Both the position numbers and the translations under genes were made by a program. Shown here one piece after another: positions 5,337 to 48,480 of a DNA stretch of 64,000 nt (the first letter of the stretch is position 1; each line of letters opens with the position of its first letter). The DNA comes from Planctomycetota bacterium (GTDB lineage Bacteria > Planctomycetota > UBA11346): assembly GCA_016745075.1 (NCBI GenBank), contig JADGDD010000012.1, forward strand, positions 1 through 64,000. The letters run 5' to 3'. The notes beneath the pieces were generated by a model. The model did not search any database, was not told where the DNA came from, and saw nothing but the letters and a program-made list of their open reading frames with translations.

Positions 5337-6239
5337 TCACACCCCCAACCAAGGCATAGCTTCATCATAATCTTCGCGCAATTGCCCCGGCACCAGCTTG
5401 AGGTAGATCTTTGTGGTGTCCAAACACGCGTGACCGAGAAACTCTTGAATATATCGAATATCAGCGCCTCCCCTGAGCAAATGCACGGCAATAGCATGGC
5501 GAAAGAGATGCGGGCGGAGGTGTTTAGCATCTGATCCCCTGCTCTCATTGAGCAATCGAAACCAGCTATAGATCGTGTCATGGGTAATCCGATTGCCATA
5601 TTGCGTGAGGAAAAGCGCACCTTCATCTGGCCCTTTAAGCAGGGTTTTGCGCAGAGATAGATAATCCTCCAGCGCAGCTTGAGCCGTCTTCATCAATGGC
5701 ACCATACGCGTTTGATTGTGTTTGCTGTTCTTGATGAGCACCGTTCGTTCGGTGAGGTCGATATGATCGAGGTTCAAACGGGAGATTTCACCAGACCGGA
5801 GACCGCAGCCATAAAGTAATTCGAGGAAGGCAACATTACGCAGACCGAAAACAGAATGCCGTGGGAGCGATTCGATAATGCTGGCAACTTCCGCTTCTGA
5901 GAGCGGCTCTTGTGGTAAATCTTCTTCGCCATTGTCTGGAACGGGTAACGACCGCGCGGGATTACGAATGACTATTCCTTTTTCTTGCAGCCATTTGGAA
6001 AAGCGGATAATAAACCCTGCTGCGCCCAGTCTCGTTTTCTTAGCTAGTCCTCTCGCTTCGAGCGACTTCATAAACGCGTCGAGGTCTGCTGGTGAAACAT
6101 CCGGCCACCGTGTACAGCCCTGTGACCGCAAGAAGCCGTGGAGGAGATCAACGAGATAGGTGTAATGCTCCACTGTTTTTGGTGACCATGCTGCTTGTAC
6201 GGTGCCGTAGGAGATAAATTGATCGATAGCTTTTTGCAT
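5337..6239 (-). CDS. Tyrosine recombinase/integrase (XerC/D-like)
   Basis: CGLRSGE arginine motif, HLFRHA, FLGH, TTKIYLKL tyrosine motif. Confidence 0.93.
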   Translation of the reverse strand: MQKAIDQFISYGTVQAAWSPKTVEHYTYLVDLLHGFLRSQGCTRWPDVSPADLDAFMKSLEARGLAKKTRLGAAGFIIRFSKWLQEKGIVIRNPARSLPVPDNGEEDLPQEPLSEAEVASIIESLPRHSVFGLRNVAFLELLYGCGLRSGEISRLNLDHIDLTERTVLIKNSKHNQTRMVPLMKTAQAALEDYLSLRKTLLKGPDEGALFLTQYGNRITHDTIYSWFRLLNESRGSDAKHLRPHLFRHAIAVHLLRGGADIRYIQEFLGHACLDTTKIYLKLVPGQLREDYDEAMPWLGV

Positions 6240-6251
6240 GATGGCGACCTC

Positions 6252-7634
6252 CTATGCCCGCGGGTGGGCAGTGCGAAATATGCTCCGCATGTCTTCAATG
6301 GGAATGGGTGTATATTTTGCAGTAGTTGATAAACTGCGGTGCAACATTAATTCATTTACTGTGCGAATGGGGCAGTCATTAGAAAAGAGTAAGGTGGCAA
6401 AACTGACTCGGAGCGAATGCCATGTGATAGTTTTCTTGGCAAGGTCGATCAGGTCTTCATTTTTCTCAATGGTAGTTTGGAGTAATTCAGCAAGGAAGTT
6501 TTTAAATCCTCCATAGGACAGTGGCTCCGTTCCTGCGCTATTTGGAAAGAGCCAGAGGTCAGTGCTGTTCTTAGGAAGAAGCAAAGGCCGCGCATCTTTT
6601 ATATATTCTTTCACCACCTCCATCGCCCACTCCGCAACAGGGAGCACACGCCCTGTACGCCCTTTCTCTCGTTCCACGCGTAATTCGTGGCGGTCGCAAT
6701 CGAGATTTGTGATGAGCATATTTTCAAGTCCACCTACGCGACGACCTGTGGCGAGTGCGAGGGATATGGCAGTGAGATTGCGCAGACGTTTGGCCCAAAC
6801 GATATTTTTAGTTATGGCGCTTTCCTCGACCAATCCCACCTGCGTATGAATAAGTGCTATCGCTTCCTGCTGGGTGAGATATTCTTTGACCACAAGGCGA
6901 GAACGTGGGACGCGAATGTTTACCTGTGCCGCTGGATTCACCATGACATGATCGCGTTGCTCAAGCCACTGATACCACGATTTAATATTAGCGAGGCGCT
7001 GACCCACTGTCGTTCGTGCAAGCGGCTTTCCTGCGGGTGTACGATATTCGGTGACCAAGTAGACCAGATGACTTTCAATGTCTTTTTTCGTGACCACAAG
7101 AAGGTTGTAATTATTATCCACACACCAGTATTCAAAACGTCGTAATGCTTCTCTAGCAATTTTCGCTGTGCCTTCGCGCTTTTTTAAACAGAGGAACGTG
7201 AGATAATCTTCAATAAGTGGATGGAGTACTTCTGTTTCCTTTTGTGGTGGGGTTTTTGGTTTTTCTAAGATGCTTGCGGGATTATCATTTCGATGTCCAT
7301 TTTCTTCTAGCCACGCAAACCAGAGTTTGACCGCTTGGAGAATATTCCGCTGGGTGGTTTGACTTGGTGGGGAATTTCTACTTGTGAGATATTTAGATGC
7401 CAGCCATTCTGGAAAGGTAGCCAATTGCTTCTTATATATAGTAGAGAAATCCAAACCGACTTCTTCCAACCATGACCACAAAGGACGGAGACGTTTCGGC
7501 AAAGCGTCTGCTGATGTCTGACTCCTCCGTGTTGCCATTTCTCTCATAAATTCCTGAGCGAGTTCTGGCATGCCATCATACCGTGTTTCCTTCCTCTTTT
7601 TATAAGTTCTTTTAGTATTTTCTTTATATTTCAC
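6252..7634 (-). CDS. Second tyrosine recombinase/integrase
   Basis: TGRRVGGLE, WHSLRVSFA, LMLHRSLSTTAKYT catalytic motifs; tandem with the previous gene. Confidence 0.9.
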   Translation of the reverse strand: MKYKENTKRTYKKRKETRYDGMPELAQEFMREMATRRSQTSADALPKRLRPLWSWLEEVGLDFSTIYKKQLATFPEWLASKYLTSRNSPPSQTTQRNILQAVKLWFAWLEENGHRNDNPASILEKPKTPPQKETEVLHPLIEDYLTFLCLKKREGTAKIAREALRRFEYWCVDNNYNLLVVTKKDIESHLVYLVTEYRTPAGKPLARTTVGQRLANIKSWYQWLEQRDHVMVNPAAQVNIRVPRSRLVVKEYLTQQEAIALIHTQVGLVEESAITKNIVWAKRLRNLTAISLALATGRRVGGLENMLITNLDCDRHELRVEREKGRTGRVLPVAEWAMEVVKEYIKDARPLLLPKNSTDLWLFPNSAGTEPLSYGGFKNFLAELLQTTIEKNEDLIDLAKKTITWHSLRVSFATLLFSNDCPIRTVNELMLHRSLSTTAKYTPIPIEDMRSIFRTAHPRA

Positions 7635-7657: not shown

Positions 7658-7775
7658 ACGTGTCAAAAGGTTCACAAGGTCAAAAGGTTGAGCTAACTCA
7701 CTTTTGTTACTAGGTTTAGGTTGTCAAAACCTTGCGAAACGCCTTCAAAAGGTTTCAAAAGGTCGAAAGGTTGAG
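7658..7775. repeat. Iteron-like cluster of CAAAAGGT(T)
   Basis: CAAAAGGTT at 7664, 7681, 7746; CAAAAGGT at 7756; variants CAAGGT (7675) and GAAAGGTT (7765); inverted CAAAACCTT at 7725. Confidence 0.65.
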
Positions 7776-9933
7776 CGGAATTAGGCGGTACATCTGCGCC
7801 TTCTTTGAGATAAATATCTCCTTTGTGGTTGGTTGTTCCTGCGGACAGTTGATAGCTCCGTTTGCGCCCCATAGCTTTCTCGGATGCCGTTACCAATCCC
7901 ATGTGCACCAGTTCTTCTGTCGCATGGCGGTAAGCGTAGTACGTCCAGTCGGGTTGGATGTTCTTAAGATCGGCGAGAGCAAAGTCCGTCGTGCTGGTTG
8001 CGAAAAGTCTCTCGTATAATTGGCGCGCTTGGGAACTGAGACCATCGCCACCAGTGGAGAGAAGGCTTCCAGCTAAAGATAACGCTGTAGTGAAATCGTG
8101 TTCCGTAGCGATTAATGCACCGTCTTCCGTGCGCTCCCTTTGATATTGATGGAGCAGGGCTGAGGCTTCTATTAATGTCAGCAAAGCGGCATGTTGTTGG
8201 CGGTGCGTAATACTGGTCTTTGGAAAATGTATCCGCTTGGCAAAAGGAATTATTACCACAAGGGGTTTAAGTAATCTCTGAACCGCATGATGCTTTTTAA
8301 GAATGGTATCGATTGCGTTTTGCGTTGGGCCATTGCCACAATGCTGATTTTGTTGTGCGGACACGATACGCTCAGTTTGCTCGGGACTTTCATCGACGTT
8401 TATTTTCAGGAAAATATCGCGGCAACGTTTATCAAGTGCGCCAGCAGATGCAGCGAGGACGGCAACGGGACCACGTACATCGGTGAGTAATCCTGCGCTC
8501 TGTTGGTTCTCTTGAGACGCGAGTGCATGCCAGCCGATACTTCCCCGCTCATTGAGTACGCGTAGAGCTAAAGCCCCCTCTGGTCGTATCGTTTCTGCGC
8601 GGTCAATAAATAAGAGCTTATGACGGAGGGAACGTTTATCGGTTTGGCGGAGTAATGATTCTGTGAGCGTATGGAATACTACGCAATCTTCGGGCGGTGT
8701 GAGCGCTGCGAGTAATCCAAGAGAATGCCACGGTGCGGCCCCTGCGCTGGCTTGATAGACAGACCACAAAGGTGATGGTAATAGACGACTAATACTCGTT
8801 AAATAGAGCAAACCTTTTGTGGTCTCTTCGCCCACCCAGCCGAGGGTTGAAAGGTCGCTTATTAATTCGGATAATAAATTATTATTTTTAAGGAGTGTTT
8901 CTGCCTCCGCTTTCTCCGATTCGCCAATCGCTACCGTTGGCAAGGTGTCGATTGCTTTTTCGTGTGTTTCAAGATACGCCCACGCTTCGGCAAGCGCTTC
9001 TACAATTTGTACTTTCTCTACACTTACCCGTCTGGATGCGCTCGCGGCGAAGCGTTGGCGTTGTACGAGGACGGAGAGGTTTATCCGATCTCTATGCGCT
9101 TTATCTCCTCGGCGTATAATCACTTGGCGTTGTGGGTTGCCATCGTCGCGAGTCTCCAAGCAATAGCGAATGGGGCCAGATTGAAAAAGAGCGATGCTGT
9201 CTTGTTCATCGAAATTGGTGAATGTGAGATTGCTCTTTTCTATTTTTTCCTCTTGTGGTAGATCACTTTTTTTATTATTTATCTCTGGCGTAACAACTTT
9301 AGACTTCGGAATGGTCACCATATCAGCACCAGTGACAGATACATTTTCTATAGTAACGAAGAAGCCAGCATTCCGAAATACGTTTCCAATACTTTTTGAT
9401 TCGCTTTCATCTTCCATGCGCAGAGTGACTTGCCTGATATTATTACTGACAAACTGCTCAATATTATTTGTAACATCTTGCTCATTGCGAATAAAGATCA
9501 CATCCTGATAGCCTTGCTTGAGTAAGCGGAGAAGCGACACAAAAGAATCGGTTACGATGATCTGACCCTCTGCTTGTTTGAGGGATGCCAGACAACAGAG
9601 ACCACAAGAAGTTTCATAAATACTGCGCTCGGAAATGGCGAGTGTTTCGGGATTAATTATACAGCAATCGACTAGCTGTTCGTTTTCATCATATGCGGGT
9701 AATAAAAACCGATTGCCCAGTTCTATTCCATCGACTGCTTTTTGCGATGGCGTATCGAGTGCATCGTGATAATGCTCTGGTAAATAGCCGAAGGAAAGCG
9801 CACGCAAACTCGCGTGGATCGATGGGCCAAAGTCAGAGAGATAGGACATGCCTATGCCTGCTTCTAATCGGTTGACGGCGAAGGCGTGGAGATGGTGGAG
9901 GAGTGATGGATTAATCATCGCAGGCTCCCTCAA
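7693..9933 (-). CDS. TOPRIM/primase-associated ATPase-like protein of mobile elements (Walker A apparently degenerate)
   Basis: TOPRIM-like segment GQIIVTDSFVSLLRLLKQGYQDVIFIRNE; C-terminal ATPase-like region DIFLKINVDESPEQTERI ... RLLKPLVVIIPFAKRIHF ... LLTLIEASALLHQYQRE. Confidence 0.6.
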   Translation of the reverse strand: MREPAMINPSLLHHLHAFAVNRLEAGIGMSYLSDFGPSIHASLRALSFGYLPEHYHDALDTPSQKAVDGIELGNRFLLPAYDENEQLVDCCIINPETLAISERSIYETSCGLCCLASLKQAEGQIIVTDSFVSLLRLLKQGYQDVIFIRNEQDVTNNIEQFVSNNIRQVTLRMEDESESKSIGNVFRNAGFFVTIENVSVTGADMVTIPKSKVVTPEINNKKSDLPQEEKIEKSNLTFTNFDEQDSIALFQSGPIRYCLETRDDGNPQRQVIIRRGDKAHRDRINLSVLVQRQRFAASASRRVSVEKVQIVEALAEAWAYLETHEKAIDTLPTVAIGESEKAEAETLLKNNNLLSELISDLSTLGWVGEETTKGLLYLTSISRLLPSPLWSVYQASAGAAPWHSLGLLAALTPPEDCVVFHTLTESLLRQTDKRSLRHKLLFIDRAETIRPEGALALRVLNERGSIGWHALASQENQQSAGLLTDVRGPVAVLAASAGALDKRCRDIFLKINVDESPEQTERIVSAQQNQHCGNGPTQNAIDTILKKHHAVQRLLKPLVVIIPFAKRIHFPKTSITHRQQHAALLTLIEASALLHQYQRERTEDGALIATEHDFTTALSLAGSLLSTGGDGLSSQARQLYERLFATSTTDFALADLKNIQPDWTYYAYRHATEELVHMGLVTASEKAMGRKRSYQLSAGTTNHKGDIYLKEGADVPPNSAQPFDLLKPFEGVSQGFDNLNLVTKVS

Positions 9934-24158: not shown

Positions 24159-24518
24159 ATATAGTAAAAAGAGTCAAACCTAATAAATTGCATATAGATG
24201 TCATATACATAGCATGTAGATAGCATATATAAATAATAGCTTTGCATAAAAGTTTCTAACACTTATGTTTAGCCACCAATATTTTTACAAATAAAAATAC
24301 ATGGAGCACATCATTACATGACATGCCTGATTGTCCCAATACCGCGCTCTACTATGCTAAATATTAGTTGGCGATCCATTTGATAATCTCTTTTGAAAAG
24401 GCAACTGAAATGCAAACGAAACACAAACTTCTCTTATCTCTATTTGCATTCTCGCGTTGACTTATTACCTTTACCCTTCGGCTTTTCTTCCAGTAAAATA
24501 TATGGAGCATTTCATTAC

Positions 24519-26552
24519 ATGACAGATTTCCTTGATGCCGCGCTCTATTACGCTGACCTTGGCTATCCCATATTCCCATGTATTCCCAAAACAAAGAAGC
24601 CAATTACAGAAAATGGGCTGCATGATGCCAGCACGGACTTTGATCAAATCGAAGCATGGTGGAATAAATATCCACAAGCAAACATTGCTATTAATACAGC
24701 AGGGCTTGTTGTTATTGATGTAGATGGAGAAAATAATCCATGGCTTGAAAACAAGGACCTCTCTGGTGCTGTTATTGCTCTGACCCCACGCGGTGGGCGA
24801 CACTTTCTCTATCGTCAGCCAGACGATAAGCAGTGGGGATGTAGTACGAGTAAGCTAGCACCCAAAGTAGATGTGCGTGGGTATGGTGGCTATATTATTG
24901 CAGCACCATCAATCTTTGAGGGCAAGCACTATCGCTGGGCACCACATTGTGAGCTCTGTGATCCTAATGATTTATCACTACCGCCAGAGTGGCTATGCGA
25001 CTTACTTGATAATTTATTAAAAATCAAAGCACCCGTACAAAATGCAAACACCATACCTGACGGACAACGCAATAGTACGCTTGCAAGCCTTGGTGGAAAT
25101 ATGCGCCGTGTCGGCATGAGCCAACCAGAAATAGAAGCAGCCTTGAAACAAGTCAACACAGACCGCTGCAATCCACCATTAGCAGAGAAAGAAGTACAAC
25201 GCATTGCCACGTCTGTTTCACGGTATGAGCCAGATCAAATAAGTGTTGCCGTGGCTGAGCATCATTTTGAGCAAGACCAAGACATAATAATTGATGAAGA
25301 AAAAGACACCGCTGATCCCGGCCCTCTTCCTGAACATTTGCTTCATGTACCCGGGTTTATTGATGAAGTTATGCAGCATACGCTTCGTACTGCCCCCTAC
25401 CCTGAGCGCACCTTGGCTTTCTGTGGAGCTTTAACTTTGCAGGCTATTCTTGCAGGCCGTAAGGTCAAAGAACCAGGAGGCAGCCGGAGCAATCTCTATA
25501 TTCTAGGTCTAGCCAATTCAGGAACTGGCAAAGAACATCCGCGAAAAGTAAACCAACGCATTATGGCAACCGCAGGATTATCCCATCAATTGGGCGATAA
25601 CTTTGCGAGTGGTGAAGGCATAGAAGATCGTATGTTTGCAAGTCGGTCTGTGCTTTTTCAAACAGACGAAATAGATGATATGCTCCAGTCTATATCCAAA
25701 AGCCGTGACGGTCGTGCGGAACGCATTATGGCTATACTCCTTAAATTCTATTCTGCCTCTGGAAGTCTTTATCATATGCGCGTCAAAGCGGGTCAAGATG
25801 CACAAGTCATAGATGACCCCTGTTTGGTTTTATTCGGTACGGCTATCCCTAAACATTATTATGAATCGCTGTGTGAGAAAATGCTCACCAATGGTTTTTT
25901 TGCACGTATGCTCGTAATGGAATCTGGCAGACGTAGTGATGGTCAAGAAGTCAGAGACGAACCGCTCTCTGAGAATATTATTGAAACAGCGCGCCATTGG
26001 GCACAGGTTACTCCGGGATTTGGTAATTTACATAATGAAAATCCGCAACTTCAAGAAGTGCCTTTTGCTAGTGGCTCAGAGGCGTTATTACGGGATATAC
26101 GGGCACAAGAAGTGAAAGCCTATAACGAGGCCCAAGATAGAAACGATGCCATTGCTATGGCCTTATGGGCACGGGCCGTTGAGAAAACCAGACGACTGGC
26201 CCTACTCTGGGCGTGTAGTGAAAACTATGAACAACCAATTATTACACCACGATCTATTGAATGGGGCTGGTCACTCGTTGAGCACCTCACACGACGTATG
26301 TTATTTCAGGTTACACTACATGTAGCCAATTCCGATTTTGAAGCGCGTTGTAAAAAGCTTCTTGGTATTCTGCATTCGTGGCACAGCACAAAGGGCAACA
26401 CACCTATGCCTGCATGGCAGGTAGCCAGACGTATGAAATTATCAAACCGAGAATTGGATGATGTGCGTAATGCATTAGTTCAACAACAGCGAATCTCTTA
26501 TATTGAGAAGCCTACTGGCGGCACACCTCAACGCCTCTACCTATTGACGTAA
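24519..26552 (+). CDS. Prim-Pol bifunctional primase/polymerase fused to DUF3987-like domain
   Basis: YADLGYPIFPCIPKTKKPITENGLHDAST...NIAINTAGLVVIDVDGEN...TPRGGRHFLYR; DUF3987-like YILGLANSGTGKEHPRKVN. Confidence 0.88.
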   Translation: MTDFLDAALYYADLGYPIFPCIPKTKKPITENGLHDASTDFDQIEAWWNKYPQANIAINTAGLVVIDVDGENNPWLENKDLSGAVIALTPRGGRHFLYRQPDDKQWGCSTSKLAPKVDVRGYGGYIIAAPSIFEGKHYRWAPHCELCDPNDLSLPPEWLCDLLDNLLKIKAPVQNANTIPDGQRNSTLASLGGNMRRVGMSQPEIEAALKQVNTDRCNPPLAEKEVQRIATSVSRYEPDQISVAVAEHHFEQDQDIIIDEEKDTADPGPLPEHLLHVPGFIDEVMQHTLRTAPYPERTLAFCGALTLQAILAGRKVKEPGGSRSNLYILGLANSGTGKEHPRKVNQRIMATAGLSHQLGDNFASGEGIEDRMFASRSVLFQTDEIDDMLQSISKSRDGRAERIMAILLKFYSASGSLYHMRVKAGQDAQVIDDPCLVLFGTAIPKHYYESLCEKMLTNGFFARMLVMESGRRSDGQEVRDEPLSENIIETARHWAQVTPGFGNLHNENPQLQEVPFASGSEALLRDIRAQEVKAYNEAQDRNDAIAMALWARAVEKTRRLALLWACSENYEQPIITPRSIEWGWSLVEHLTRRMLFQVTLHVANSDFEARCKKLLGILHSWHSTKGNTPMPAWQVARRMKLSNRELDDVRNALVQQQRISYIEKPTGGTPQRLYLLT

Positions 26553-26835
26553 AAGGTTGTGCAATAGGTCTCCCCTGCGCAATAGGTTTGACAACGGCAA
26601 CTGAAAAGATGATCAATAGGTTGCAACAGGTCGCAATAGGTTGTCAATAGGTTTACCCCGAAAAAAAAAGGAAAACATCGTGAATAACGTACTAAACACT
26701 ACTCTCTCTCTACCTATTAACCTATTGCACCCCCCCTATCTCTCGACACTTATTTTTGTGTATAAATGCGACCCCCTAATCAATAGGTCAATAGGTTTGG
26801 ACCGAAAGTGCCTTTGTGTCATTTCGATAGGTACT
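26538..26835. repeat. Iteron-like cluster of CAATAGGT
   Basis: CAATAGGT at 26562, 26580, 26614, 26634, 26645, 26781, 26789; variants CAACAGGT (26624) and CGATAGGT; inverted ACCTATTAACCTATTG at 26712-26727 and ACCTATTG near 26539. Confidence 0.75.
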
Positions 26836-26920
26836 ACCCCCGTACTGTGTCATAATACCGCACGCGGCCCCATTTTCTTATACAGCAAAGTTTGTTTGTT
26901 TTTGTCCGAGCAGAAAGGTC

Positions 26921-47017: not shown

Positions 47018-48091
47018 ATGAAAAAATCACTCAATCCCATCTCGTGGCTCAAAGCCATGATGCCCGAAACCAATCGTGAAGATGAATATCTGCGGATTAT
47101 TCAACTGTTATCAGAACAGCTCAATATCTACATCGAAACATCTCCACGTCCAAAAGTCACCGATACACAACGCAGTAGACTTGGCACCCTATCTCGTCTT
47201 ATAGATCGCAAGACACTGCATTCGCTACCTTGTATGGTAAAAGTAGACACCATGCTCGGCTGGGTACGACAACTCCAAAGACGAAAGTTCCACTCTCAGT
47301 CAGATAAGTCCAAAGGCGGGCGACCAAATCTTGAACAAATAATTCGTAAAGAAATTATCAAACTGGCTAATGCTGGCTGTTTAACTGCACGACGACTTGA
47401 GGGAGAATTAAAAAAATGCAATCTTGAAGTAAGTCATGAAAGTATTCGGAAAATCCTGCGTGAAGAAGGATTTCCATCTGGTAGCGATAACGACTCTTGG
47501 GCAAAGTTCATCAAACGGCAGATCCACTTAATGCTTTGTACGGATTTTTTCACCATTGAAACAGGAGGACTCCTCCCCTTCACCAAAGCGCGCACACATT
47601 ATGTTTATTTCATCATGGATATGGCAACCAGAGCAGTTAAAATCATCAACATGACCGAGCATCCAACACAGGAATGGACTGTGCAGCAAATCCGCAATCA
47701 TGCTCTAGAAGATGATAACCTTTTCGCTGGAAAGAAATATCTCATTCATGACAATGGACCACAGTTCAAAAAGGATTTTTGCTGCATTCTCAAATCAGAA
47801 GGCATTACGACGAAAGCGATCATGCCCTATGCGCCAAACATGAATGCGTATGCCGAAAGGTTTGTCAGAACAATACGCGAGGAATGCTTGAATAAATTTG
47901 TATTCTTCAATAAAGCTCAGCTTAGACGAGCACTTTCACAATTTGAAGAACACTACAATACAGAGCGCCCACACCAAGGAATTGGTAACGAAACTATCAC
48001 ACCTTGGAAACATGCTGAAAATACGGGCGACATTATCTGTGATGAAAGACTTGGCGGATTGCTCAAGTCATTTCGCCGCGAAGCTGCCTAG
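47018..48091 (+). CDS. DDE integrase-core transposase
   Basis: LCTDFFTIE, LIHDNGPQFKKDF, PNMNAYAERFVRTIREECLNKF, HYNTERPHQGIG. Confidence 0.9.
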   Translation: MKKSLNPISWLKAMMPETNREDEYLRIIQLLSEQLNIYIETSPRPKVTDTQRSRLGTLSRLIDRKTLHSLPCMVKVDTMLGWVRQLQRRKFHSQSDKSKGGRPNLEQIIRKEIIKLANAGCLTARRLEGELKKCNLEVSHESIRKILREEGFPSGSDNDSWAKFIKRQIHLMLCTDFFTIETGGLLPFTKARTHYVYFIMDMATRAVKIINMTEHPTQEWTVQQIRNHALEDDNLFAGKKYLIHDNGPQFKKDFCCILKSEGITTKAIMPYAPNMNAYAERFVRTIREECLNKFVFFNKAQLRRALSQFEEHYNTERPHQGIGNETITPWKHAENTGDIICDERLGGLLKSFRREAA

Positions 48092-48149
48092 TACGACCAC
48101 CTCTCATTCAACAATCGCCACCAGCTCCGCAATGGATACTGGCTATTCT

Positions 48150-48480
48150 TCGTGACCATTTGACAACAAATTACCATTGTAGTCGTGTCTTGAAATAGAC
48201 TTAGATGATTTTCGTCACCAAATGCTGCGATTTTACCGATTGGTTTTCTATAGGATTCTCAAAGATCGCGTCGATATTTACGGGGTTATTGCACCGATGG
48301 GTTTGTTGGTAGTAAGGGGTTCGGGCTACCCTTCTGGCCATGCGACAATAAATTGCCACTATAGTCATACCCTGATTTGAGCTGAAGTAATTTCTCACAA
48401 CAAATTTCGGCGTTTTACCGATTAGTTTTCTATAGGATATTTCGTAAATATCGTGTCGATAGGTTTATTGGTAGTAAGAG
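48150..48480. repeat. Two adjacent copies of a dispersed ~150 bp repeat (others at about 338-505 and, partial, 45491-45540)
   Basis: Shared GACCATTTGACAACAAATTAC...ACCGATTGGTTTTCTATAGGA...GTCGATATTTACGGGNTTATTGCACCGATAGGTTTATTGGTAGTAAG. Confidence 0.75.

Follow-up and report, generated by a model that had tools for sequence, protein, structure and literature searches.

The Prim-Pol gene and the repeat cluster at its 3′ end

The window analysed here, a stretch of 64,000 nt, carries a plus-strand gene whose product combines Prim-Pol (PF09250, 1.2e-35), PriCT_1 (PF08708, 1.4e-16), and DUF3987 (PF13148, 1.1e-09) domains, all exceeding the curated cut-offs. The ORF ending at 26552 is listed from a TTG at 24393. 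Homologues align from residue 43–44 of this listed ORF, and translation likely starts at the ATG at 24519, where homology begins. On one side it is bordered by genes for recombination and for helicases (exonuclease, Sak4-like annealase, ResIII helicase), and on the downstream side by genes for a GpA-type terminase, portal, capsid, and tail; the element is therefore a prophage, in a planctomycete genome. The nearest named relatives were Planctomycetota, and megablast of the phage region against phage records gave no match. Directly 3′ of the gene, positions 26539–26832 contain nine exact copies of CAATAGGT, seven on the plus strand and two on the minus strand, together with three one-mismatch copies. 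The features of the locus are as follows.

24519–26552, plus strand: Prim-Pol, PriCT_1, and DUF3987 putative initiator gene (Pfam)
25290–26333, plus strand: DUF3987 AAA+-like ATPase part (AlphaFold2 model) with Walker A variant GTGKE and Walker B FQTDE
26334–26549, plus strand: C-terminal winged helix, proposed iteron reader (model and wing/iteron covariation)
26511–26528, plus strand: wing tip PTGGTP
26539–26546, minus strand: exact iteron overlapping the last codons of the Prim-Pol ORF (motif positions)
26562–26652, plus strand: iteron set A, five exact direct copies (26562, 26580, 26614, 26634, 26645) and one-mismatch CAACAGGT (26624)
26653–26711: AT-rich stretch, 64% AT, candidate melting region
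26712–26727, minus strand: iteron set B, inverted tandem pair of one-mismatch TAATAGGT (26712) and exact CAATAGGT (26720)
26728–26780, plus strand: 53-nt spacer starting CACCCCCCC and ending GTGTATAAATGCGACCCCC(TAAT), with C-runs at both ends
26781–26796, plus strand: iteron set C, tandem direct pair CAATAGGTCAATAGGT (exact copies at 26781 and 26789)
26825–26832, plus strand: degenerate iteron copy CGATAGGT, one mismatch

The cluster thus runs from set A (plus) through the AT-rich stretch to set B (minus), the spacer, and set C (plus). The earlier note had counted seven exact direct copies, an inverted ACCTATTAACCTATTG (26712–26727), and a tandem (26781–26796), and had let the cluster begin within the last codons of the primase gene; counts, coordinates, and the overlap of the first site with the end of the ORF were all correct. 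The most frequent 8-mer in 26535–26840 has nine copies, and 2000 dinucleotide shuffles never gave more than three. No other 8-mer cluster in the 64-kb window is as dense. CAATAGGT is not common in the genome, with 140 copies in 4.68 Mb compared with 161 for the reversed control word, and same-strand pairs spaced within 30 bp number five in the whole genome, every one of them inside the cluster. Iterons dominate, and the largest inverted repeat is built of iteron pairs. A point against an origin here is that GC skew does not turn clearly at 26.7 kb. Elsewhere in the window, five copies of AGCGGACG within 300 bp (63601–63950) form the next-densest 8-mer cluster.

The DUF3987 part was modelled with confidence by AlphaFold2 (pLDDT of 90, pTM of 0.88). 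In Foldseek searches, it matched PDB entries for MCM, RuvB, ORC, and the C-terminal region of the NrS-1 Prim-Pol (E-values of 5e-5 to 1e-3) with TM-scores below 0.5, a level that indicates the fold class only. These matches suggest an AAA+ fold of the MCM/RuvB type. In the model, the winged helix comprises helices 349–368, 375–382, and 386–398 and strands 402–407 and 414–419. PDB sequence searches found no credible relative of this protein or of the 7693–9933 protein described below. In this DUF3987 branch (24519–26552 in the window, relatives L006–L185), Walker A reads GxGK[DE]xPRK, with an acidic residue instead of the usual Ser/Thr after the lysine.

Repeated segments at 247–496 and 47807–48434 were considered as att sites at the ends of the element and rejected, as they are diverged (75–84%) copies around a transposase gene. 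The segments are 70–180 bp long and surround an rve_3 transposase gene (47018–48091), which suggests remnants of two related insertion sequences flanking the prophage.

Arrays in relatives and covariation with the winged helix

Single-protein queries returned no related loci, whereas queries with an alignment of the helicase and winged helix did. Two such searches gave 160 loci, which were pooled with earlier loci and dereplicated to 112, mostly Planctomycetota prophages and viral contigs. The best-word score at the gene 3′ end was at least 5 in 54 of the 112 loci (48%) compared with 7 of 386 control windows from the same loci (1.8%), and at least 6 in 33 loci (29%) compared with none of the 386; the fraction of loci with arrays is a lower bound, as exact 8-mer counting misses degenerate arrays and in some Phycisphaerales loci picks GC-rich words. 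As in the window, where the array starts in the last codons, the arrays lie immediately 3′ of the gene, which is also the position of SaPI/PICI-type origins. Sinorhizobium phage AP-16-3 and Rhizobium phage RHph_TM3_3_14B also have comparable arrays 3′ of their homologues. Against the origin reading, a strong exact-word array was missing from about a third of the relatives, and none occurred in those examined from Vibrio, Pseudoalteromonas, and Serratia. The earlier note had made its replication-related reading depend in part on a motif that is not common throughout the genome and on clusters kept in relatives, and both were observed.

Among the 67 relatives with an inverted dyad, 49 have a C-run at one or both ends of the spacer, and 11 at both. 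The flank 5′ of (outside) set B averages 51% AT in relatives compared with a locus mean of 38% (Wilcoxon, 3e-8). The spacer was rejected as a melting site, because unlike this flank it is on average not AT-rich. It often contains a long alternating purine-pyrimidine GC-rich run ending GCGA(GA)CCCCC (window 26728–26780; L009, L035, L115, L116, and others), and its C-runs and purine-pyrimidine alternation are conserved while the iteron words change.

The words vary among relatives and include CAATAGGT, CAATAAGT, CAACAGGT, CAAGAAGT, CAAAAAGT, CAATGAGT, CGGTAAGT, GGTGAAAG, and TTGACGGA. Word similarity correlated with winged-helix identity when helicase identity was held constant (partial r = 0.50; 0 of 1000 permutations, in a test that ignores phylogeny), whereas the partial r with helicase identity was 0.10 when the winged helix was held constant. 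Two prophages of one genome (G033; L007 and L018) have helicases that are 92% identical, winged helices that are 25% identical, and the words CAATAAGT and TTGACGGA, respectively. In the near-isogenic pair L109 and L111, the winged helix is identical through the end of the recognition helix; the wing reads GTPQR in the former and GRPSK in the latter, and the words are CAATAGGT and CAAGAAGT.

Wing classes were compared among the 44 loci with CAANRRRT words. A GTP-type wing tip occurs with ..GG in 19 of 21 loci and a GRP/GKP tip with ..A in 23 of 23 (Fisher, 1.5e-10). The pairing of GTP with ..RGGT and of GRP with ..AAGT/..AAAT thus holds in 42 of the 44, and the two loci that break it have the wings GPTKK and GPAKR. 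In the AlphaFold2 model, a confident one, the covarying residues make up the wing tip. The constant CAA half of the word accompanies an unchanged recognition helix. Only three phylogenetically independent wing switches fall on supported branches, all concordant (sign test, p = 0.25), and eight on the best tree. The reading in the earlier note of an iteron array that would serve the C-terminus of the primase as a replication initiator site is supported.

A second array beside an integrase-linked ORF

The other array of the window lies about 19 kb from the first, the two occupying the left and the centre of the element.

5337–7634, minus strand: two adjacent integrase ORFs (5337–6239 and 6252–7634) of the tyrosine-recombinase type (PF00589, 1.7e-23 for the second), adjoining the second array
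7664–7771, plus strand: second array, four exact copies of CAAAAGGT (7664, 7681, 7746, 7756) with CACAAGGT and CGAAAGGT; a separate system
7693–9933, minus strand: integrase-linked, Toprim/ATPase-derived ORF that has a C-terminal winged-helix-like segment and has lost its Walker A; the second array belongs to it

This array is weaker than the first, as shuffles reached at most three copies, in 8 of 2000, against the four exact copies observed. It had been placed by the earlier note at the end of a primase-like gene. The position held, since the array is real and straddles the 3′ end of ORF 7693–9933, and "primase-like" was partly right: the ORF had no Pfam, PHROG, or NCBIfam match, and it is degenerate in both the Toprim-like region and the P-loop. 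The P-loop reads ASAGAAP instead of GxGKS/T, and the Toprim acidic residue is also lost. The family was found in 19 of the 151 genomes searched, including that of the window, and was absent from 20 other viral records searched, many of them fragments. Members from the host family of the window have lost the P-loop and the Toprim acidic residue, whereas most other, distant members keep GKS or GKT. From its sequence, the protein looks like a catalytically dead primase-helicase with its DNA-binding tail kept. In several members, arrays of other words at the 3′ end are followed by the apparent start of a tyrosine recombinase gene. The role of the second array may lie in integration or excision and not in replication.

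The occurrence of two arrays in one element, pointed out by the earlier note, recurs in one relative, G022:C40, whose genome belongs to the same family as that of the window. Homologues of both integrase ORFs stand there at the matching place, followed by a 7693–9933-type ORF with GTTGGCGR repeats and then by phage genes with Prim-Pol and CAATAGGT. The integrase-linked word and the Prim-Pol word of G022:C40 are unrelated, and the duplicated origin or matched pair that had been proposed is therefore unsupported. The adjoining proteins in the window come from different families, exact copies of the word of either array are missing from the other, and A at iteron position 4 is rare for Prim-Pol proteins with the window-type wing (5 of 109 sites in other loci). 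For partition sites at opposite arms, also suggested earlier, nothing was found in favour. The sites of P4 belong to one protein, whereas the two arrays of the window belong to two different proteins.

A candidate replication origin

In PICIs, the origin lies directly 3′ of rep, with two sets of short iterons flanking an AT-rich region, both in Staphylococcus and in Gram-negative PICIs (PMC6092414), and the layout of the array here is alike. The C-terminal domain of the initiator helicase binds the iterons in the case of SaPI Rep and Cch2 (PMC7581432), and here the same role is predicted for it from the covariation and the winged-helix model. Unlike these satellites, which lack a full structural gene set, the element is a complete prophage that encodes a terminase, portal, capsid, and tail of its own; its Prim-Pol is fused to DUF3987, and it has an additional C-run-bounded spacer and a third iteron set. 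P4 alpha likewise joins a primase-helicase to a repeat-binding winged helix (PMC4234260), but its primase is of the Toprim type. ORF904 of the Sulfolobus plasmid pRN1 is also a Prim-Pol–helicase–winged-helix protein with an origin just 3′ of its gene (PMC4234260); its helicase is SF3, however, and that origin is a 100-nt stem-loop without iterons, whereas the cluster here is dominated by iterons rather than by a large stem-loop of that kind. The DUF3987 primase-helicases of phages and mobile genetic elements (PrimQH and All3500 families, PICMI prim) share the ATPase family and are predicted replicative helicases of such elements, but the passages considered here describe no origin or iteron for them (PMC5862659, PMC10803314).

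Linkage, no less than recognition, would give rise to the covariation, because the iterons directly follow the winged-helix codons and a single recombination can shift both. The word could then belong to a mobile cassette of C-terminus and intergenic region whose repeats the winged helix does not recognise, and the C-terminal domain has evidently been swapped while the helicase stayed nearly constant. Linkage does not predict, however, that the residues that change lie at the tip of the wing and follow two particular base positions, or that the constant CAA half pairs with the unchanged recognition helix, and a cassette obliged to stay together is what cognate recognition itself predicts. We consider linkage alone unlikely, and recognition of the iterons by the winged helix is strongly indicated by the sequence comparison and the model.

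An operator array without origin function, at which the winged helix or another regulator autoregulates the replication operon or controls the downstream terminase and late genes, seems to us quite improbable. Autoregulation at nearby repeats is common among DNA-binding proteins, and the array is placed between replication and packaging genes; but it lies 3′ of the gene rather than at its promoter, its oppositely oriented sets are grouped around an AT-rich stretch together with a spacer whose C-runs are conserved, and its word tracks a domain of an AAA+/Prim-Pol replication protein. An operator role could be additional to origin function. Since the same prophage encodes a ParB-domain protein (12839–13414), the repeats might also be parS-like partition or incompatibility sites. 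This is hardly credible, as the words track the winged helix of the primase across relatives and the ParB-domain homologue of G022:C40 lies on the other strand and at another position than in the window.

The cluster at 26539–26832 is very probably the replication origin of the prophage, arranged in the SaPI/PICI style, with its iterons bound by the C-terminal winged helix of the adjacent gene product. Within this domain, CAA, the constant half of the word, would probably be read by the recognition helix, and RGGT, the variable half, by the wing tip. Iteron sets in opposite orientation would let two AAA+ (DUF3987) rings assemble face to face, the AT-rich stretch at 26653–26711 would melt, and the Prim-Pol domain would prime the exposed strands for bidirectional replication. 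The protein would then be a self-loading initiator-helicase-primase like SaPI Rep or P4 alpha, which is the simplest reading in view of what has been described for SaPI Rep, Cch2, P4 alpha, and ORF904 (PMC6092414, PMC7581432, PMC4234260). The proposed function is an ordinary one; the specificity pattern is unusually clear, and the SaPI/PICI-type layout stands in a complete prophage.

More tentatively, and with some doubt on our part, planctomycete phages may possess open-ended origin specificities, generated by swaps of winged-helix/iteron cassettes on a constant replicase under a code in which the recognition helix specifies CAA, wing GTP specifies RGGT, and wing GRP specifies AAGT/AAAT. Some elements would also keep a second array that may couple excision to replication; its owner would be the relative of primase-helicases that is catalytically dead and linked to tandem integrases.

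The locus offers a precise origin model for a phage replicase family for which the passages noted above describe none, and it extends the PICI-style layout beyond satellites. Nature supplies dozens of winged-helix swaps as well as near-isogenic variants of the wing, and with them initiator-origin specificity becomes approachable residue by residue; this specificity bears on the compatibility of co-resident phages. A Phycisphaeraceae chromosome (CP054186.1; L031, L048, L075) carries three copies of the replicase gene within about 108 kb whose top array words differ, and it is a natural case for origin compatibility.
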